Below, piece after piece: positions 43,114 through 54,263 of a stretch of 64,000 nucleotides of DNA (position 1 is its first letter; each line of letters opens with the position of its first letter). The notes below the pieces were generated by a model that saw only the letters and a program-made list of their open reading frames with translations, was not told where the DNA came from and did not search any database. The DNA lies in assembly GCF_000317675.1 (NCBI RefSeq), contig NC_019776.1, forward strand, positions 2,356,001 to 2,420,000. The letters are read 5' to 3'. This stretch comes from Cyanobacterium aponinum PCC 10605. GTDB taxonomy: Bacteria > Cyanobacteriota > Cyanobacteriia > Cyanobacteriales > Cyanobacteriaceae. A program made the translations under genes and the position numbers.

Positions 43114-44523
43114 TTAAACAGCGACTTCAAAAGCAACTCCTTCTAAAACAAATTGAGGATAGTTGGCGAGAATACTATTTTTCTCTTCTTCTCCTACAAA
43201 TAAATATGTACCGGGTTGACTGGTATTTTGAAAACGGTAAATATCTTGTCCTAAATTAGCGTCTGCTCCATAAGTATAAAAAGCGATACCTTCTTCGATA
43301 AAGTTGGTATAGTTTTGACGAATATTACGACTTTCCTCCTCTGCCGCATAAAGATAAGTACCGGGTATATCCCTATTTTGAAAACGATTGAAACGAATTA
43401 ATTGATCTTGATTTTCATTTTCTGGTACATCTCCTGTCACACTGACTTTAAAACTCTGTCTGGCGGATTCTCCCAATAGATTGGTGGCTTTGATGGTAAT
43501 ATCCGTTTCTCCTGTCTTAATGGTATCTCCATTGGCTTGACTAGCGGTTTTGAAGGCTAATCCCTCTTCCTTAAAATTGCGGAAATTACTGAGAATACTT
43601 TGTCTTTCTTGCTCACCGACAAATAAATATGTACCGGGTAAATCTTGATTTTGGAAGCGATAGAGGGGAGTTTTTAAAGAGCTACCGTAATCTAAAATGA
43701 GGTTTCCTTGATTATCAAAACTAGCACTAACAACATCAGGATCAGTATTACTTTCTACAGTGAAGGTGAATTCGAGTACATTGTCAATGGTAATATTTTC
43801 AAAGCGGACAAATTGATTATCTTCGGTGAATGGATAAGAGGGATAGGGAAAATTAAAATCGTTGGCAATAGTATTATCATTAACGGGTAGGCGAGAAAAA
43901 AAAGTTGAAAATTGAGAAGAGGTGACTGGATTAATTACCGGCAAAGAAGTATTGGTAACGGGTAAAGATGCGATCGCGCCTACTGTATTCAAATCTTCTG
44001 GGGATAAAACTTGACCAAAAACAGTCAAACCACCACCACGGGTATCAAAATCAGGATTATCACCAACATTAAAAACCCATCGATTTCTGGCACTATTGGC
44101 TTCATCTGTTAGCTTATACATAGCAATCGTACCAGCTTTATTGGACCGTTGGGAGCTAAATTCATCCTCAATAGGTGCACTGGGAGTAATACGTTTAACT
44201 TCTAAATTCTCGACAGTATAAGCCCCCCCTAAAATATATTTGGATTGAGAAGTAGAAAAAGAACGATCAATGATGGAGTTGTTATAACTACCACCATCAA
44301 CGTAACTAGTAAAATTATTGACTGCAATGGGCGCGCCCTCTCCTGTTTGGTCAAATAAAACAATATTAATTTCACCACTACCTAAAGAATTATCCTCTAA
44401 ATTAAAATTAGCTACTTTTCCAGTGGTTAAAGGATCATCAAAATGATTCAATAAATTAATGGTAGTGCTACTGGTTTCAAGATTAAAAGATTGATCGCTA
44501 ATAGGAGTAATGTTAATTGTCAT
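43114..44523 (-). CDS. Cyclophilin-like protein with C-terminal YRF modules (degenerate active site)
   Basis: 469 residues. A cyclophilin-type peptidyl-prolyl isomerase domain (about 45-205, with GEINIVLFDQTGEGAPIAVN and GLTVFGQVL) is followed by linker beta domains and three ~45-residue modules: one at about 285-330 and two at the end (YRFQNTSQPGTYLFVGEEEK ... EGVAFEVAV). Key cyclophilin residues differ from consensus: IIDRSF replaces the IIHRSV of its neighbour and YILGG the FVIQGG, and RWVF replaces QWFF. Catalysis is therefore doubtful. There is no signal peptide. Its neighbour at 44591 is a tandem paralogue with the normal residues, 67 bp away. The terminal modules match those of the giant protein at 18 kb; their role (surface or matrix binding) is inference. 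Confidence 0.8.
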   Translation of the reverse strand: MTINITPISDQSFNLETSSTTINLLNHFDDPLTTGKVANFNLEDNSLGSGEINIVLFDQTGEGAPIAVNNFTSYVDGGSYNNSIIDRSFSTSQSKYILGGAYTVENLEVKRITPSAPIEDEFSSQRSNKAGTIAMYKLTDEANSARNRWVFNVGDNPDFDTRGGGLTVFGQVLSPEDLNTVGAIASLPVTNTSLPVINPVTSSQFSTFFSRLPVNDNTIANDFNFPYPSYPFTEDNQFVRFENITIDNVLEFTFTVESNTDPDVVSASFDNQGNLILDYGSSLKTPLYRFQNQDLPGTYLFVGEQERQSILSNFRNFKEEGLAFKTASQANGDTIKTGETDITIKATNLLGESARQSFKVSVTGDVPENENQDQLIRFNRFQNRDIPGTYLYAAEEESRNIRQNYTNFIEEGIAFYTYGADANLGQDIYRFQNTSQPGTYLFVGEEEKNSILANYPQFVLEGVAFEVAV

Positions 44524-44590: not shown

Positions 44591-45955
44591 CTAAATTGCT
44601 ACTTCAAAAGCAACCCCTTCTAAAACAAATTGAGGATAGTTAGCAAGAATACTATTTTTCTCCTCTTCCCCTACAAATAAATATGTACCGGGTTGACTCG
44701 TATTTTGAAAACGGTAAATATCTTGTCCTAAATTAGCATCTGCTCCATAAGTATAAAAAGCGATACCTTCTTCAATAAAATTGGTATAGTTTTGACGAAT
44801 ATTACGACTTTCTTCCTCTGCCGCATAAAGATAAGTACCGGGTATATCTCTATTTTGAAAACGATTGAAACGAATTAATTGATCTTGATTTTCATTTTCT
44901 GGTATATTCCCTGTCACGTTGATATTAAAAGTATCTCTAACAGATTCTCCCAAAAGATTGGTGGCTTTGATGGTAATATCTGTTTCCCCTGTTGCAATAG
45001 TATCTCCATCGGCTTGACTAGCGGTTTTGAAAGCTAATCCTTCTTCCTTAAAATTGCGGAAATTACGGAGAATATTCTGTCTTTCTTCTTCTCCCACAAA
45101 TAAATATGTGCCGGGTAAATCTTGGTTTTGGAAGCGATAGAGGGGAGTTTTGAAAAAGCTACCGTAGTCTAAAATGAGGTTTCCCTCAGTGTCAATAGTG
45201 GCGGTGACAACTTCAGGGTTAGTATTTCTTTCTACGGTAAAAGTTAATTCAGCTACATCTTGAACCGTAATACTTTCAAAACGAATAAAGTCTTCATCTT
45301 GATTGAGGCTAGGATTATTAACATCAACATTTTTCGGATTAACAGGTAATGTATTAAAAGCAGAATTTAGACTAGAAGCATTTACCACTGGCAAAGATGC
45401 GATCGCATCTACAGTATTCAAATCTCTTTGAGATAAAACCTGTCCAAAAACCGTAAACCCACCATTTTGATTATCTAAATTACCAGAATTATCCCCCAAA
45501 TTAAAAAACCATTGACTTGTAGCGCTATTGGGGTCATCTCCCAGCTTTGCCATGGCAATTGTACCCCTAACATTAGAACGCTCTTCACTAAATTCATTCT
45601 GAATTGGAGAATTTGTCGGCACACGATTAAGAGTCAAGTTATTGACAGTAAAACCTCCTCCTTGAATGACGAAAGGAGTAGGGGTAACTACGGAACGATG
45701 AATAATAGAGTAATCATAGCGACCACCATTGACATAATTGATAAAATTATTGACAGTAATTGGGGCTCCTTCTCCCGTTTGGTCAAATAAAACAATATTG
45801 ATTTCTCCATTACCAATGGAATTATCTGTCAAATTAAAATTGGCGACTTTTCCTGTAGTAAAAGGATCGTCAAAATTATCAAATAAATTAACAACCGTTC
45901 TAATATTGCTAATATCAACGGATATATTATCAATAGGATCAATATTAATAGTCAT
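44591..45955 (-). CDS. Cyclophilin-type peptidyl-prolyl isomerase with C-terminal YRF modules
   Basis: 454 residues with the same layout as the gene at 43114. Here the isomerase domain keeps the family pattern: HRSV with the catalytic Arg, FVIQGGGFT, GTIAMAKLGDDPNSATSQWF and NGGFTVFGQVL. It should catalyse cis/trans isomerisation of Xaa-Pro bonds. One YRFQNQDLPGTYLFVGEEER module is internal and two more form the C-terminus. The last ~105 residues are the same as in the paralogue except for the final residue, while the isomerase domains differ widely, which suggests gene conversion of the 3' ends. No signal peptide; if exported, a non-Sec route is needed. Upstream, the start MTINIDPIDN is well placed. 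Confidence 0.85.
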   Translation of the reverse strand: MTINIDPIDNISVDISNIRTVVNLFDNFDDPFTTGKVANFNLTDNSIGNGEINIVLFDQTGEGAPITVNNFINYVNGGRYDYSIIHRSVVTPTPFVIQGGGFTVNNLTLNRVPTNSPIQNEFSEERSNVRGTIAMAKLGDDPNSATSQWFFNLGDNSGNLDNQNGGFTVFGQVLSQRDLNTVDAIASLPVVNASSLNSAFNTLPVNPKNVDVNNPSLNQDEDFIRFESITVQDVAELTFTVERNTNPEVVTATIDTEGNLILDYGSFFKTPLYRFQNQDLPGTYLFVGEEERQNILRNFRNFKEEGLAFKTASQADGDTIATGETDITIKATNLLGESVRDTFNINVTGNIPENENQDQLIRFNRFQNRDIPGTYLYAAEEESRNIRQNYTNFIEEGIAFYTYGADANLGQDIYRFQNTSQPGTYLFVGEEEKNSILANYPQFVLEGVAFEVAI

Positions 45956-46126: not shown

Positions 46127-46897
46127 TTAAGAAAACAATTCTGAACCAACAACCATCTCTGTTGCTTTACCATTAGCTTCCATCTTCAAGTCATGAATAT
46201 TGCGACTCATTTCTCTGGCTTGATGATAGCTGTCTATATCACCCTGTTCAAAATATAATAATGCCGCTTTGCGCAAGTCATCCACTGCTTTTTGTTTCAT
46301 ATTACTATCGAGATATAAAACCCCTCTTTTATGGTAGGCTTTTGCCATATTCCCATCTCGTTTAATGGCTTCGGTGTAATCTTCGATCGCACCTGTTATA
46401 TTACCTAATTTTTCATAACCCACACCCCGTTGATAAAAGAAATCAGCAGAATCAGCATTATTACGCAATTCTTGGGAAAGATTTTCCACTTCTTTGAGAT
46501 TGCTAACAACATTATTTAATTCTTGATGTTGTAAATCTAGGCGTTTAATCTCTTGAGCAATGTCTGCTTTTTGACTATTAAGAAGTTCTTGAATAGAATG
46601 CTGTAGCCTTTCCATGCTTGTGCCTAAATCCGCTTTATAATCCATCAAAGTTTGATTTAATTCAACGTGATTGCTCTCAATTTTTTGAGTTAGTTCATTA
46701 ATAGTTTCCTGTTGTTGATTGTAGGCATTTACCAATCCCTCATACTGTTGTTTACGACTAAATACATTACAACCTACCCCCACCGTTAAACCAGCAGAAG
46801 CATAAGCCACGTTAGCTGTTGCAATAGATGCGATCGCACCTACCGCCGAAATACCTAAGCCTACATAGCCGAGAATGTCTTGTTGTTTTTCCATCAT
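46127..46897 (-). CDS. TPR membrane protein, Slr0151-like
   Basis: 256 residues: an N-terminal hydrophobic segment (about 9-45, DILGYVGLGISAVGAIASIA and beyond), a long coiled coil (about 50-150) and two TPR units (about 150-215, [26 protein letters not shown] and AYHKRGVLYLDSNMKQKAV). This matches Slr0151 of Synechocystis, a thylakoid/plasma-membrane TPR protein tied to photosystem II assembly and repair. It is the last gene of a seven-gene same-strand set running from 50475. The start could be the first or second Met (MMEKQQD). In Synechocystis a second ferredoxin (slr0150) precedes this gene and a Ser/Thr kinase (slr0152) follows it; both are missing here. Confidence 0.8.
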   Translation of the reverse strand: MMEKQQDILGYVGLGISAVGAIASIATANVAYASAGLTVGVGCNVFSRKQQYEGLVNAYNQQQETINELTQKIESNHVELNQTLMDYKADLGTSMERLQHSIQELLNSQKADIAQEIKRLDLQHQELNNVVSNLKEVENLSQELRNNADSADFFYQRGVGYEKLGNITGAIEDYTEAIKRDGNMAKAYHKRGVLYLDSNMKQKAVDDLRKAALLYFEQGDIDSYHQAREMSRNIHDLKMEANGKATEMVVGSELFS

Positions 46898-47026: not shown

Positions 47027-47479
47027 CTAAACCAAAACTGCACAATTAAGCTCAAATGCAGGGATCGCATATTTAGCTTCTTCAGGCGTAAGAAACTCAG
47101 GTACAACCTTCAATAACAAATCATAGGTTTCAATATTATCATCAGTAAAATTATAGGCACGGGAAATAGTTTGAAACCATAACAACATATTCGTGCGTAA
47201 TCTTTCCATGTCATCAAATAATAAAGCAGTGGCACTGTAACGCAATAAATCCACCATATCTCTTAAACAAGTGACATAATAGTCTTTCCAGTTAGGATGA
47301 AGTTTTTGTTTTTCTTCTTTGACGCGATCGCAAATTGCCTGAGCATTATCTCTAATTTTAATATAAGCACTCATTCTTAACTGATGAGAATCGAGATAAT
47401 CTTCTAAAAACTGTAGCTCATAATCTTGAGCATAACGTCCATCCACTTCTAAAGTTAAATCAGAAAATTGTCTTAACAT
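47027..47479 (-). CDS. Phycobiliprotein-fold protein, Slr0149-like
   Basis: 150 residues, all-helical, the size of a phycobiliprotein subunit. The segment CLRDMVDLLRYSATALLFDD (71-90) lines up with the beta-phycocyanin chromophore site (C-L-R-D-x4-LRY-x3-ALL-x2-D), with Cys71 at the bilin-attachment position, Arg73 at the propionate contact and Asp74 at the pyrrole-nitrogen contact. It corresponds to Slr0149 in the operon linked to photosystem II assembly. Whether it carries a bilin is not known to me; lyase-independent or non-binding states are both possible. Located 30 bp after the [2Fe-2S] protein gene. Confidence 0.75.
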   Translation of the reverse strand: MLRQFSDLTLEVDGRYAQDYELQFLEDYLDSHQLRMSAYIKIRDNAQAICDRVKEEKQKLHPNWKDYYVTCLRDMVDLLRYSATALLFDDMERLRTNMLLWFQTISRAYNFTDDNIETYDLLLKVVPEFLTPEEAKYAIPAFELNCAVLV

Positions 47480-47509
47480 AATCTAAAACTCCCTTATTGA
47501 TTAAATAAA

Positions 47510-47995
47510 TTAAATAGCATCAACACTTTGAGCTAAATATTTAGATACTTCACCCTTAGTATCACTCAATTGAGTAATCATCGAGCGAGTAATTAACTTA
47601 CCTTCCTCCACTAAAATCTTCCCAGAAATAGGATGAAGGATATTTTGCTGAGCTCTTCTACCAATCAAAGACTCAACATCATCAATCTGACTTAAATACA
47701 TCCCCGAAGGAAGTTCCACCACAACCCCATCTCCAATCACCCTCGCTTGACAAGCTAAACGGGAATTCATCTTACAAGTGGTAATAACTTCTAAAGTTCT
47801 TTTTTCCCGACGATTGAGAGGAGAAAGACTTTCCATCCCTTCTTTGATATAAACATGACAAGTAGAACACATTCCCCTACCGCCACATTCTTGCATGACA
47901 TTTAATTCATTTTTCAGTAAACCCGACAAAAGATTATCGTTAGTTTTAATTGCCGTTTCTTTCCCAAGAGGGTCTAATCTAATCGTTTTTGCCAT
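47510..47995 (-). CDS. [2Fe-2S] ferredoxin-domain protein, Slr0148-like
   Basis: 161 residues. The N-terminal ~95 form a plant-type [2Fe-2S] fold with four cluster cysteines: C-GGRGM-C-ST-C (37, 43, 46) and the fourth in RLACQARV (about 81). The C-terminal ~65 residues (QIDDVESLIGRRAQQNILHP onward) are an extension not found in photosynthetic PetF. In Synechocystis this position is slr0148, next to the PetF-like slr0150, which is absent here. The extension and the low acidity suggest a partner other than FNR. A redox or assembly role with the neighbouring V4R and phycobiliprotein-fold proteins is inference. Confidence 0.85.
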   Translation of the reverse strand: MAKTIRLDPLGKETAIKTNDNLLSGLLKNELNVMQECGGRGMCSTCHVYIKEGMESLSPLNRREKRTLEVITTCKMNSRLACQARVIGDGVVVELPSGMYLSQIDDVESLIGRRAQQNILHPISGKILVEEGKLITRSMITQLSDTKGEVSKYLAQSVDAI

Positions 47996-48076
47996 TATCC
48001 TTACCTTAAATAATCTACTACTACCTTCAGGTTAACTGATATATGAACGAGAAATAAACTTGATTTTCAATCACTT

Positions 48077-48748
48077 TTAAGCCTCAGATGAACCGCTACA
48101 AAGTAAATTGATTACCATTTCATGATCATGCCCTTCCTCTAACCACGCTTTTGCAGACTTCATTCTTTCATTTAAACCAATAATGAAATAGTTAGCACTT
48201 GCACCCATAGACTCACAGGAAGTTTGCAGAGCCAATAAATCCTCTCCTGTTAATTGGCTAAAGAAAGAGGTTAAAATACCTGCTTCAGGTTGACAAGCGA
48301 AACCTTCACCTTGGGGGGCGGCTTGGGCAAAAGGAGAATTAACCGTATTAACCACGATAAAACCTTGAGAATAATAGTCAAAATTAAACTCAATCACTCC
48401 CCAACCGTGAGTTTTCCAACATTGTTTTAAACAACTCAAAAACTCCACCATTTCCATTTGTGCCAAAGGAGTTTCATAATATTCACTCACCTCTTGCAAA
48501 AAACGACGATAAAAACTTTTACCCCACCATTTCCCGCAATTGTAAAGCACTAAACCTGACGCTTGTCCTAATTCTTCATTTAAACCCTCATAAACCCCCT
48601 GTAAAAAAACTTCTGGCAAAGCAATTAAACGAGAGCCTAAACGAGTTTCAAGCAACCCTAACTCAAAATCTCCCTGCACATAGGCTGAAGGAGCGAAATA
48701 ATTACCTTTTAAAGGTTTTTCTCTGACTAAATCCGCTACAGAAATCAT
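48077..48748 (-). CDS. V4R-domain protein, Slr0147-like
   Basis: 223 residues with a 4-vinyl-reductase (V4R) type domain in the C-terminal half, recognised by GEGFACQPEAGILTSFFSQL and the terminal TSCESMGASANYFIIGLNERM. V4R domains bind small hydrophobic or tetrapyrrole-like ligands, as in BchJ-type proteins of bacteriochlorophyll synthesis. Only the first Cys of the C-x2-MG-x3-C pattern is kept; the second is Asn. The paralogue at 49759 has both. It is the fourth gene of the Slr0144-Slr0151-like set. Being soluble, a thylakoid-associated role in photosystem II or chlorophyll-protein assembly would depend on partners. The exact ligand is unknown. Confidence 0.8.
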   Translation of the reverse strand: MISVADLVREKPLKGNYFAPSAYVQGDFELGLLETRLGSRLIALPEVFLQGVYEGLNEELGQASGLVLYNCGKWWGKSFYRRFLQEVSEYYETPLAQMEMVEFLSCLKQCWKTHGWGVIEFNFDYYSQGFIVVNTVNSPFAQAAPQGEGFACQPEAGILTSFFSQLTGEDLLALQTSCESMGASANYFIIGLNERMKSAKAWLEEGHDHEMVINLLCSGSSEA

Positions 48749-48856
48749 TGATTTTTCCTCTTACTAAAGAATTTCTTAGAACAACTAAACTAGCTTGTAG
48801 TGAGGGCTTTAGCCCTTATTTCCACTGTTGCCTTTTCCCTTCTCTCACCAATCAAC

Positions 48857-49327
48857 CTAGATACAAACTGCTTCAGTAATATGACGTTGAGCTTGATCTA
48901 AAAATGGTTGGATATATTTAATACCGTCATCTTCTAATACATTTTCTAATTTTTTGATTAGTAAAGAATGTAAGTTTTCTGAGATGACTTGATATTCGTG
49001 GGCTTGAACAATATCCGTCAACCACTCTAATAAACGATGCTCTAAAAATTCAGGATTATTTAATAACATCGCCATCGCACCATAACGAGTAACTAATAAC
49101 CAGTGACGCACACAAGTTTCTATTTTGCGGGTCTTTTCTTGGGGGAGATTTTCCAATAACTTATCTGCTATTGCTTGAAAAATGCTAATTTCTTGATCTC
49201 TTAAAACTCGATAAACTGCTAATCTTTGTTTCAATGTCGAGACTTCTTGGGTTAATTTATCTAAGTCTGACTGTTGTAGATATTGATGTTCTGATTCGTG
49301 AATTAATGCCTGTAGTTCTGGATACAT
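48857..49327 (-). CDS. Phycobiliprotein-fold protein, Slr0146-like
   Basis: 156 residues, helical. The stretch TCVRHWLLVTRYGAMAMLLN (71-90) aligns with the phycobiliprotein chromophore loop: Cys72 at the attachment position and Arg74 at the propionate contact, but the usual Asp is His75. A 30-residue coiled-coil-like N-terminus replaces the normal X-Y helices. It is a paralogue of the protein at 47027, with the V4R and ferredoxin genes between the two. In the Synechocystis operon this place is slr0146. If it binds a tetrapyrrole, the His may change its ligation. The gene starts 9 bp after the preceding stop, so translation is coupled. Confidence 0.7.
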   Translation of the reverse strand: MYPELQALIHESEHQYLQQSDLDKLTQEVSTLKQRLAVYRVLRDQEISIFQAIADKLLENLPQEKTRKIETCVRHWLLVTRYGAMAMLLNNPEFLEHRLLEWLTDIVQAHEYQVISENLHSLLIKKLENVLEDDGIKYIQPFLDQAQRHITEAVCI

Positions 49328-49336
49328 AATTTTTCC

Positions 49337-49762
49337 TTATAACAAATCGGATAAATCTTTGACGTTAATTTGTCTTTTTTCAGGTTCAGATATTAGAGTT
49401 TGATCCATAGCCGGTATGGAAGCTATATTTAATTGTCTCTTTTTACCTTGCCCCTGCCATACCATACGCTGAAAAAACTCAGCAACAGTCATTTTCAAGG
49501 AGTAAACAGGTTTATAAGTACCTTGTTCTGATAGTTCCAATTCTTCTTCTGCGGAGATAGGCTTAGTAAAAACCTGCGTTTTGCCGGACCAATTATTGAG
49601 AGCAAAGAATTTTTCAACGGTAAAGTTTAATTCTGGTTTTAAAGACTCTTCTCCCGTAAAAACTTCCGAAGTAACTTCTTCGTCGAAGACTGGAATTTGT
49701 TTTAATCCCTGCCAATTTGCTCTTTGAAAGAAATCCTCAACGGTAGAGGTTGATAACATCAT
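49337..49762 (-). CDS. Small protein with three TVxxFFxxxxWxG repeats, Slr0145-like
   Basis: 141 residues containing three copies of a 13-residue motif: TVEDFFQRANWQG (7-19), TVEKFFALNNWSG (48-60) and TVAEFFQRMVWQG (92-104), separated by ~30 polar residues. Aromatic positions are strictly kept while spacers vary, as in a multivalent binding peptide. No known domain is visible, and there is no membrane segment. It overlaps the previous gene by 4 bp (ATGA), so the two are translationally coupled. The N-terminus of that V4R protein carries a fourth, weaker copy (TLEDFFHFDTNRG). It occupies the slr0145 place in the operon. Confidence 0.75.
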   Translation of the reverse strand: MMLSTSTVEDFFQRANWQGLKQIPVFDEEVTSEVFTGEESLKPELNFTVEKFFALNNWSGKTQVFTKPISAEEELELSEQGTYKPVYSLKMTVAEFFQRMVWQGQGKKRQLNIASIPAMDQTLISEPEKRQINVKDLSDLL

Positions 49763-50475
49763 TTGAGATATTCTCCATTAACTAATTTTTTCTGAATATC
49801 TTTAGCCCCCGCCCCCTCGTTTTGCCAAAATGTTGCCGCATCGATGCGATCTTGTTTTCCCAACAAAAATTTACAATAGGTTTCACCCATAGAATAGCAC
49901 TGAATTTCAATGCAGTTAAGGGGTTTATTGATAAAGCGACTAAAAAAACCAGCCATAAGACCGGCATAAATATGACAAACGGGTTTCCCCACATCTCCGA
50001 GGGTACGAGCGACGGCGGAATCGAAAATATTAACAAACATGAAGCCGTTTTTCTGTTCACTTAAGTCCACATCCCAGTTGCCCCATCCTTGAGTTGTAAA
50101 AGGCCACCACCATGCTTCTAAAACATAGAGTAAGTTCATGTCATGGATATTTTTAGGGTATTCGTATTCTTCTTGAAACCATTTTTCAAAAAATTCTGCG
50201 TCTCTAACACCCCATGCTTTACCGATGTTGTACATAACCACACTGGAGGCAGAACCGACTTCTTCTTCTAATCCTTCTATTAAACCAACGATAAAATCTT
50301 CGGTTACAAGAACGTTTCTGGACTCATTCCAATCGGTAATATCCCCCCTGTTGGTATCGAAATGAAAAAAGTCTTCCAAAGTGTAGTGATCGTGTTTTTT
50401 GGGATATTTACTCTTCCAGAGATTTTTGCTAATTTTCTCAACGATGCGATCGCTTTTTGTTGGTGTGAATGTCAT
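49759..50475 (-). CDS. V4R-domain protein, Slr0144-like
   Basis: 238 residues and the first gene of the set. After a ~60-residue N-terminal part with TLEDFFHFDTNRG (32-44), the V4R domain runs to the end. Landmarks are GSASSVVMYNIGKAWG and the ligand/metal region ...IQCYSMGETYCKFLLGKQDRI, which keeps both Cys of the C-x7-C pattern. V4R family proteins bind hydrocarbon or tetrapyrrole ligands. In Synechocystis the homologous gene slr0144 leads an operon described as being involved in photosystem II assembly. The 280-bp AT-rich region upstream, shared in tandem with the pentapeptide gene, is the likely promoter site. Confidence 0.85.
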   Translation of the reverse strand: MTFTPTKSDRIVEKISKNLWKSKYPKKHDHYTLEDFFHFDTNRGDITDWNESRNVLVTEDFIVGLIEGLEEEVGSASSVVMYNIGKAWGVRDAEFFEKWFQEEYEYPKNIHDMNLLYVLEAWWWPFTTQGWGNWDVDLSEQKNGFMFVNIFDSAVARTLGDVGKPVCHIYAGLMAGFFSRFINKPLNCIEIQCYSMGETYCKFLLGKQDRIDAATFWQNEGAGAKDIQKKLVNGEYLK

Positions 50476-50755: not shown

Positions 50756-51592
50756 TTAAGCAACACCTTTTTTTATTAAATAGTCCACAGTTAAATGTTT
50801 TTCTTCGATGATATTGGGCAAGTCTTGAATAATCATGGACGATTTTTTCACAAAAGCATTAGTCCATTTTTCAAACCATTTCAATTGTATCGTAGTAGCT
50901 TGATGAGACAGAGAACCATTAAAATTTACCTTACCATTTTTGTCCATAGAAAATTCTCTTAACCATTCCACATCAGGGCGACTATCTTCAAAATTTTTGC
51001 CTGTAATAGTCCCACCTAAATACTTACTAGTAATAGATGCAATGGTTTCAAAATTAGTTATGATTTCTCCAATGGTTACTTTTTTGCTAGTGGCAAGATT
51101 AAAAGAAGAAACTTTTTGCATTCCTAAGGATTCAGGGTTAAATCCCTTATCAAAACGAGTAGTATTATCATAGGATGCGTCTTTAAAAATACCTCCATTC
51201 AGATGAGCGCCATTGAGGAATGCCCCAGATAAGTCTGCTTTATAAAAGTTTGCTCTAGTTAGAAAACTACCCGTAAAATAAGCCTCTTTAACGATTGCTT
51301 TTTGGAAATTAACTTTAGTTAGGTAGGCTTTAATTAAGTATGCTCCTGTTAAGTTTGCACCAGTGAGATTTGCCCCACTGAGATTTGCTTCATTGAGATA
51401 GCATTTACTCAAGTCAGCACCGCTCAAGTCGGCATCCCTTAAATCAGCATAACTTAAATCGCAACCTCCGAGATTGACTCCTTTTAGTTGAGCGTTTCTA
51501 AGGTCAATTCTTCTGAGTTGCAACTTAGGAAAATTTCTTTCCCCTGAGTTATATTGTGCTTGAATATCAATTACTGCGGTGTTTGCTAACAT
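50756..51592 (-). CDS. Pentapeptide-repeat protein with conserved C-terminal domain
   Basis: 278 residues. A(D/N)LXX repeats span about 28-140 (e.g. DLRDADLSGADLSKCYLNEA). The last ~125 residues are a separate, non-repeat domain with FNPESLGM, YLGGTITGKNFEDSRPDVEW and GSLSHQATTIQLKWFEKW. The same domain ends the pentapeptide protein at 53265 with the same order of conserved residues (YLG, SRP-x2-EW, G-x-L, LKW-x3-W). I do not recognise it as a named family. Cytoplasmic; function unknown. It lies 280 bp upstream of the slr0144-type operon on the same strand. Confidence 0.8.
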   Translation of the reverse strand: MLANTAVIDIQAQYNSGERNFPKLQLRRIDLRNAQLKGVNLGGCDLSYADLRDADLSGADLSKCYLNEANLSGANLTGANLTGAYLIKAYLTKVNFQKAIVKEAYFTGSFLTRANFYKADLSGAFLNGAHLNGGIFKDASYDNTTRFDKGFNPESLGMQKVSSFNLATSKKVTIGEIITNFETIASITSKYLGGTITGKNFEDSRPDVEWLREFSMDKNGKVNFNGSLSHQATTIQLKWFEKWTNAFVKKSSMIIQDLPNIIEEKHLTVDYLIKKGVA

Positions 51593-53264: not shown

Positions 53265-54263
53265 TTAAGAAATTTTTTGCTCTAAATTGTAATTTAGGTA
53301 CTGTGGAGAAACTATCTTATCTTGTTGTAGGAATATTTTATCTTGTTCTAATAAATCAATAAATCCTTTAACCATAATGGAACAATTTTGAATATAATTT
53401 TTCACCCATTCTTGATACCATTTTAATTCAAAATCACTAATGATTTCTGTCAATGCACCTTGATAATGAATTGAGCCTTTATTGGTAATTTTAAAGCTAT
53501 TAACCCATTCACAATGAGGACGAGATTTTTCCAAATATTTTACTATTATTGATTTACCTAAATAATGAGAACCTGTTTTGCTTAAATAGTTCAAACTATT
53601 AACAATTTCGGCAACAGAAATATATCCCCCTTCACTCATTCCATGCTTTTCAGGGAGAAAATGATGATCAAATAAAGTTTGTAGATTATATTCTGCACCT
53701 TGAAAAAGAGTCTTGTCTATTATTGCCCGAATCAGACAAGCGTTAGTTAGATTTGCTTCTTGAAAATTTGTTCGGGTTAAATTACTTCCTGTTAAAAATC
53801 CATGATTCAAATTAGCCTTTTGAAAATTTCCATAGCTTAAATCACTTTTATTAAGAGAAGTTGCTACTAAATTGGCTTCAGAAAAATAAGAATTTTGTAA
53901 ATTAGCAGAACTAATATGACTACGATAAAAATTTGTTTTTTTGCATCGGGCTTTGGTTAAGTTAACGTGGTTAAGATTTCCATAACTTAAGTCTGCTTCA
54001 TTCAATATTGCACCTCTTAAATTACAACCTTTGAGATTTGACCCTTTGAGGCACGATTTACTTAAGTTTGCTCCCCTTAAGTCACAATTTTCGAGATTTG
54101 CACAACTTAAATCTGTTTCTGATAGGTCAATGTCTATTAAAGATAGTCCTGAGAGATTAATTCCAGCAAAATTTTGTTTTCTAAAGTTTCTTTTCCCTTT
54201 ACTATACTTTAACAAAATAATAGTATTGTCATTTCTATCCTTTTTGGTTACTATTTTATCCAT
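53265..54263 (-). CDS. Pentapeptide-repeat protein with conserved C-terminal domain, paralogue
   Basis: 332 residues. The repeat region spans about 25-185 (e.g. DLSETDLSCANLENCDLRGA), longer than in the protein at 50756. The C-terminal ~130 residues carry the same non-repeat domain: FLPEKHGM, HYLGKSIIVKYLEKSRPHCEW, GALTEIISDFELKWYQEW and NCSIMVKGFIDLLEQ. The two genes flank the EAL gene on the same strand, so the group may have arisen by duplication. The N-terminus is basic and without a signal peptide. Function unknown. The start was chosen at MDKIVTKKDRN, behind the AAAACATAAGAAAA region, without a strong ribosome-binding site. Confidence 0.8.
   Translation of the reverse strand: MDKIVTKKDRNDNTIILLKYSKGKRNFRKQNFAGINLSGLSLIDIDLSETDLSCANLENCDLRGANLSKSCLKGSNLKGCNLRGAILNEADLSYGNLNHVNLTKARCKKTNFYRSHISSANLQNSYFSEANLVATSLNKSDLSYGNFQKANLNHGFLTGSNLTRTNFQEANLTNACLIRAIIDKTLFQGAEYNLQTLFDHHFLPEKHGMSEGGYISVAEIVNSLNYLSKTGSHYLGKSIIVKYLEKSRPHCEWVNSFKITNKGSIHYQGALTEIISDFELKWYQEWVKNYIQNCSIMVKGFIDLLEQDKIFLQQDKIVSPQYLNYNLEQKIS

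Follow-up and report, generated by a model that had tools for sequence, protein, structure and literature searches.

Gene content and order of the cluster

The window (the whole stretch of DNA that was analysed, 64,000 nucleotides from Cyanobacterium aponinum PCC 10605) contained a minus-strand run of genes in the order V4R, 0145-like, 0146-like globin, V4R, 2Fe-2S, 0149-like globin, TPR. The labels 0144-like to 0151-like were assigned by gene order and domain, not by alignment to the Synechocystis 6803 sequences. The features were as follows:

49759..50475, minus strand: V4R protein (0144-like); PF02830, 77 bits
49337..49762, minus strand: 0145-like protein, 141 aa, with three TVxxFFxxxxWxG repeats starting at residues 7, 48 and 92
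48857..49327, minus strand: 0146-like phycobiliprotein-fold globin, 156 aa; PF00502, 42.2 bits; model pLDDT 88.0; bilin site unconserved in orthologues
48077..48748, minus strand: V4R protein (0147-like); PF02830, 48.4 bits
47510..47995, minus strand: 2Fe-2S ferredoxin-domain protein (0148-like); PF00111, 38.6 bits
47027..47479, minus strand: 0149-like phycobiliprotein-fold globin (cyanobacterial BBAG), Cys71-Leu72-Arg73-Asp74, 150 aa; PF00502, 47.7 bits; model pLDDT 92.4; best fold match Z 17.2
47267..47269, minus strand: codon 71 of the 0149-like gene, TGT (Cys), the canonical bilin-attachment position
47135..47137, minus strand: codon 115 of the 0149-like gene, Asn here; most W71 orthologues have their second Cys at this position
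46127..46897, minus strand: TPR protein (0151-like), last gene of the same-strand run; PF00515, 46.2 bits

The two globin reading frames that the earlier note had described were present, with CLRDMVDLLRY from residue 71 of the 0149-like protein and CVRHWLLVTRY from residue 72 of the 0146-like protein, and Pfam matches bore out its account of V4R proteins, two in number, and a 2Fe-2S protein as neighbours.

Related loci were retrieved through an alignment of the 0144-like V4R protein, in which it was 60-93% identical to the 21 remaining rows; the 80 named loci are thus the best 80 of 252 relatives and were V4R-chosen. Within this set (best 80 of 252, V4R-chosen), the full order V144-0145-0146-V147-FeS-0149-TPR was found in 35 of the 80 loci, and the order V144-0145-0146-V147 in 72. 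The closest named loci by the 0144-like protein belonged to MAG CG_2015-22_32_23 and Geminocystis sp. GBBB08 (94% each, among the best 80 of 252). The 0145-like protein had no Pfam match at E 0.01; 74 relatives of it, with one to four copies of a looser repeat, were found in the named loci, the best 80 of 252, and its repeats suggest that it may act as a multivalent tether.

Other repeat proteins were encoded nearby. Two pentapeptide-repeat proteins (50756-51592 and 53265-54263) matched, in their C-terminal part, that of a protein encoded beside an FeS-V4R-globin-V4R cluster elsewhere (L077; E 9e-12 and 9e-10 by pairwise blastp without composition correction); the N-terminal part of the L077 protein looked receiver-like by eye. 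Tandem paralogues at 43114-44523 and 44591-45955 had a cyclophilin-like N terminus (by eye) and a C terminus with repeated RFQNxxxPGTYL units.

Fold and phylogenetic placement of the two globins

Both globins exceeded the cut-off of the Pfam Phycobilisome family (PF00502; 47.7 bits for the 0149-like and 42.2 bits for the 0146-like protein, cut-off 22.2), so the match of their motifs to the bilin site reflects homology, and a chance origin was ruled out. At E 0.001, the family was matched by 52 of 52 and 64 of 65 aligned globin rows. AlphaFold2 models (mean pLDDT 92.4 and 88.0 for the 0149-like and 0146-like proteins) resembled allophycocyanins over almost the whole chain, the best fold matches being 8ddy_A for the former (Z 17.2, 2.3 A over 148 residues) and 8imi_H for the latter (Z 15.3, 4.0 A over 150 residues). 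The stretch immediately before the Cys was shorter in the 0149-like protein than in phycobiliproteins.

The 0149-type rows (n=41) formed one clade and the 0146-type rows a separate one, also in the mixed tree. The genome of PCC 10605 had 11 PF00502 matches including both cluster globins, and seven of its own phycobiliproteins formed a group (100/100) distinct from the 98 remaining rows; neither globin fell in the light-harvesting antenna clade. As in cyanobacterial BBAGs (non-antenna bilin-binding globins), both were encoded in a cluster with FeS and two V4R proteins. The CXRD motif of some cyanobacterial BBAGs was present in the 0149-like protein (CLRD at 71-74) and lacking in the 0146-like protein (CVRH).

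Since the globins share the allophycocyanin fold, they might be regarded as minor phycobilisome subunits, which we consider highly improbable. The antenna phycobiliproteins are a separate 100/100 group, on which ground antenna-subunit identity was rejected, and the linkage of the globins to V4R and FeS genes was fixed among the named loci, the best 80 of 252. Gloeobacter and Nostoc punctiforme possess phycobilisomes. According to the main text of Rockwell, Martin and Lagarias 2023 (PMC10151467), proteins of the present kind are absent from both.

Distribution and bilin-synthesis context

Of the 244 genomes of the phylum in the first sample, 202 had a match to neither globin. The 0149 type was present in 38 of the 39 genomes with the 0146 type, even where the genes lie apart; the single 0146-only genome (G221) is an assembly in 320 contigs, and the 0149 type without the 0146 type occurred in none of this sample. 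Among 388 genomes sampled from the class of PCC 10605, the 0149 type was found in 216 (135/388 in its order).

A bilin reductase was matched in 41 of the 42 first-sample genomes with a globin match. The remaining genome, G185, encodes phycobiliproteins, ApcE-like stretches among them, which makes a gap in the assembly likelier than true absence of the reductase. Phycobiliproteins and bilin reductase were both present in the genome of locus L117, titled Prochloron, and in PCC 10605 the bilin reductase gene lay about 1.3 Mb from the cluster. A relative with no PF00124 match in its 91% complete genome (G010) carried heme oxygenase and bilin reductase genes on one contig together with FeS, V4R, globin and V4R genes, like the pre-PcyA clusters of PMC10151467. 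The G010 globin, with V at the Cys position, placed with the non-antenna rows in both trees.

The earlier note had allowed for a chlorophyll precursor as well as a bilin. V4R domains are described as binding small hydrophobic molecules and have been linked to chlorophyll precursors (PMC13326532), and the 0144-like V4R rows were far more alike than the globins (mean column identity 71% vs 52% and 47%), as would suit a module in which the V4R proteins hold a hydrophobic ligand, be it a chlorophyll precursor or some other, and the globins are scaffolds. We judge such a module improbable: PMC10151467 traces the cyanobacterial cluster to clusters with bilin reductase and often heme oxygenase, G010 has both on one contig, no pointer to chlorophyll precursors rather than bilins was found in the genomes, loci or literature examined, and nothing found named such a precursor.

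Conservation of the bilin site in the 0149 and 0146 types

Orthologues came from the 244 phylum genomes, of which each search matched 42, and from the named loci (best 80 of 252), giving 93 distinct 0149-type and 107 distinct 0146-type sequences. The 0149 set was then enlarged to 246 distinct sequences from further genomes, among the matches listed; the 140 extra regions were hand-picked among those matches, mostly one or few per genus, and are non-random. Globin rows shorter than 140 aa, a piece of L052, five pieces with fewer than 110 aligned residues and near-identical rows were dropped.

In the 246 sequences of the 0149 type, residue 74 was D in 243, N in 2 and G in 1, while residue 71 was W in 120, C in 117, Y in 3, S in 3 and F, G and I in 1 each. 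The Asp is thus strongly constrained, and the Cys, absent from 129 orthologues across cyanobacteria, mostly alternates with an aromatic residue. Cys71 was present in all nine 0149-type rows from genomes labelled as the family of PCC 10605. The residue also varied with gene order (93-sequence set): Cys in 40 of the 50 genes lying between FeS and TPR genes, Trp in all 8 lying between FeS and V4R genes.

The 0146 type differed at all three positions (n=107). The Cys position held S in 38, A in 32, V in 12, C in 11, G in 7, T in 5 and another residue in 2; the Arg position K in 64, R in 17 and others in 26; the Asp position H in 64, N in 23, Q in 10, D in 4 and others in 6. The Cys and Arg of the 0146-like protein are therefore unconserved in their clade, and the Cys (11/107) was ruled out as a conserved feature. 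With H, N or Q at the Asp position in 97 of 107 orthologues of the same fold, the fold itself does not demand the Asp. The earlier note's statement that both proteins keep the bilin-binding residues thus held for the Cys, Arg and Asp of the 0149-like protein; the 0146-like protein keeps Cys and Arg only, neither of them conserved. Free variation of Cys and Arg among orthologues, which that note took to speak against pigment binding, was found for the 0146 type; in the 0149 type, Cys was present in 117 of 246. The two globins would form a pair of which one member has lost its pigment site.

Alternatively, both globins may be purely structural assembly factors that carry no pigment, the Cys being a leftover and Asp74 serving helix packing or protein contact. 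A quick tree of the 246 sequences required no fewer than 19 changes in the presence of Cys71, the 0146 type lost the site and yet co-occurs with the 0149 type in 38 of 39 genomes, and 38 of 246 orthologues of the 0149 type had neither Cys71 nor Cys115, which, along with the loss of Cys71 in 129, means that covalent binding is not obligatory family-wide. We nevertheless regard a purely structural role as unlikely, given that Asp74 is kept in 243 of 246 sequences while the sister clade of the same fold dispenses with the Asp, that relatives bind bilins (PMC10151467), and that the loss of Cys71 tends to be accompanied by a Cys 44 residues on.

A second cysteine in the 0149 type

The Cys at position 115 was found in 90 of the 120 W71 rows, in 1 of the 9 other rows lacking Cys71 and in 5 of the 117 C71 rows (246 rows). 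Any Cys at positions 110-121 was present in 96 of 129 rows without Cys71, against 9 of 117 with it. Residue 73 was R, K or Q in 85 of the 90 W71 rows with C115, and L, V, I or M in 25 of the 30 W71 rows lacking it. Position 115 aligned with residues 126-129 of the phycobiliproteins of PCC 10605, 45 after the Cys with one gap, a stretch that we take to line the bilin pocket (Trp128 and Tyr129 of alpha-phycocyanin). A separate clade of extra globins, mostly with CxYD, carried both cysteines, again 44 residues apart, in 10 of its 11 rows, and a globin of locus L082 likewise had both at that spacing.

Five two-Cys globins of the CxYD type lay away from V4R genes (L079:4717-5187, L083:4961-5431, L084:5074-5544, L090:5039-5542 and L091:4835-5344), and each of these, five being tested, adjoined a gene whose product has a linker domain of the phycobilisome type (PF00427, 124.7-137.3 bits). 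Among first-sample genomes, those with Trp in the 0149 type had the CxYD type in 9 of 14 cases and those with Cys in 0 of 24 (hand tally; BLAST E 1e-5). In genome G169, a V4R gene and the two-Cys globin of L082 flanked a diverged second globin (L082:4588-5178; PF00502, 26.3 bits).

Tests that respected ancestry gave a weaker picture. On the quick tree of 246 rows, the fewest changes were 19 for Cys71 and 6 for C115. Independent pairs on a careful tree of 93 rows gave, for the loop Cys, 4.3 in the expected direction against 0.1 in the opposite one (median p 0.125), and for C115 alone 2.0 against 0.0 (median p 0.5), the controls being Cys81 (0.6 vs 1.0) and Cys139 (0.9 vs 0.0). On the 246-row quick tree, the values were 2.1 against 0.1 for the loop Cys and 1.8 against 0.0 for C115 (median p 0.5 each), with the control Cys139 at 0.9 vs 1.1. 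The pairs thus ran in the expected direction on both trees, none of the tests reaching 0.05. A likelihood-ratio test for change correlated with Cys71 returned p values of 3.5e-4 (C115) and 2.6e-4 (any loop Cys), and in the control columns p 0.0015 for Cys139, 0.88 for Cys81 and 0.34 for Cys146; because the control Cys139 was also significant, this test cannot separate a functional link from shared ancestry.

The association of W71 with C115 across the alignment suggests alternative bilin anchors, a hypothesis that is weak once ancestry is respected. In its fuller form, which we put forward tentatively and lean somewhat against, cyanobacterial BBAGs would have two alternative anchors in one pocket, Cys71 and the Cys 44 residues on, with an ancestor that had both and descendants that retained a single one. 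The ancestral pair would survive in the CxYD clade and in the L082 globin, Trp would usually replace the first anchor, and some lineages would have lost both, mostly along with Arg73. Among six globins in other FeS-V4R-globin-V4R clusters, four had C71 without C115, one had both and one neither, so that a two-Cys ancestor is not favoured. If two anchors existed, the bilins or the geometries in which they are bound would differ as well, one example being an 18-vinyl bilin like biliverdin on the second Cys, and bilin handling would be what selection preserves in this PSII-linked cluster.

Proposed role of the cluster

On balance, we lean towards the 0149-like protein being a BBAG that acts in PSII assembly or repair with a pigment-less 0146-like partner. 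The pigment binding envisaged by the earlier note thus stands as a possibility for the 0149-like protein, where Asp74 is kept in 243 of 246 orthologues, Cys71 in 9 of 9 within the family, and BBAG relatives bind bilins; it was not upheld for the 0146-like protein. Weighing against the BBAG reading are the loss of Cys71 in 129 of 246 orthologues, the shorter stretch ahead of the Cys, the V at the Cys position of the G010 globin, and the 202 of 244 genomes that matched neither globin. Cys71 would anchor the bilin and Asp74 would hold its ring nitrogens. The protein would work with the two V4R proteins, the 2Fe-2S protein and the 0146-like globin, which would serve as a structural counterpart, much as in a two-subunit protein. 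Rather than harvesting light, the complex would carry or sense a bilin in the PSII assembly or repair attributed to the operon. If a PSII assembly factor carried a bilin, reaction-centre building would be coupled to heme breakdown or to the supply of antenna pigment. The conservation map names the residues to mutate, C71, D74 and, in W71 species, C115, and the 0149 type as the one to study before the 0146 type.

Comparison with known systems

The idea of a bilin-binding module has already been published as a family-level proposal (PMC10151467), in which Slr0149 was named a cyanobacterial BBAG, with CXRD in some. The cluster of PCC 10605 likewise has a CXRD globin beside 2Fe-2S and two V4R proteins and outside the light-harvesting clade. 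The main text of that paper speaks of a BBAG and duplications, does not name slr0146 and contains neither 'Trp' nor 'second Cys'; what the present analysis adds to that text is the division between the 0149 and 0146 types, the alternation at the anchor position and a clade with two cysteines. It calls the function non-essential and the functions of BBAGs not yet known. A literature search, with most subscription papers outside its scope, returned no recognisable later paper on cyanobacterial BBAGs; one later paper (PMC11480375) mentions BBAGs a single time in the text available. The Acaryochloris 'apcA' genes have been described as slr0149 homologues (PMC6002478).

Bilin binding is reported in PMC10151467 for BBAGs of other bacteria; in the literature examined, no pigment was demonstrated on a cyanobacterial BBAG. 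BBAG-1, BBAG-2 and BBAG-3 bind bilin, and their fluorescence, where measured, was low. Two of them, BBAG-1 and BBAG-3, are homologous globins of heterotrophic bacteria from the same cluster type, with CXRD in the tested ones, and needed no lyase to bind bilins in E. coli; they sit with bilin reductase and often heme oxygenase, whereas in PCC 10605 the reductase is about 1.3 Mb off. BBAG-2, of a different lineage and found with a B12-binding protein, is alike in having a Cys in another motif, binding biliverdin with RGMC instead of CXRD, so anchor positions vary among BBAGs (PMC10151467).

The Pap operon of Synechocystis 6803 (slr0144-slr0152), which has been linked to PSII assembly (PMC4853703, PMC9145668), has by description the same kinds of genes in the order V4R, 0145, globin, V4R, FeS, globin, TPR, and co-fractionation and an Slr0149 pull-down support interactions among Slr0144-Slr0149 (PMC9880817).

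The bilin domain of ApcE (4xxi_A) matched the 0149-like model with Z 16.5 and 2.2 A over 142 residues. An ApcE-like ORF of PCC 10605 has SLRD at the Cys site, keeping RD, and a single Cys elsewhere among the 330 residues listed, located 38 residues past the site as against 44 in the 0149 type. If, as we assume, this ORF is ApcE and its downstream Cys the bilin anchor, it offers a precedent for a moved anchor in a globin of the same fold.
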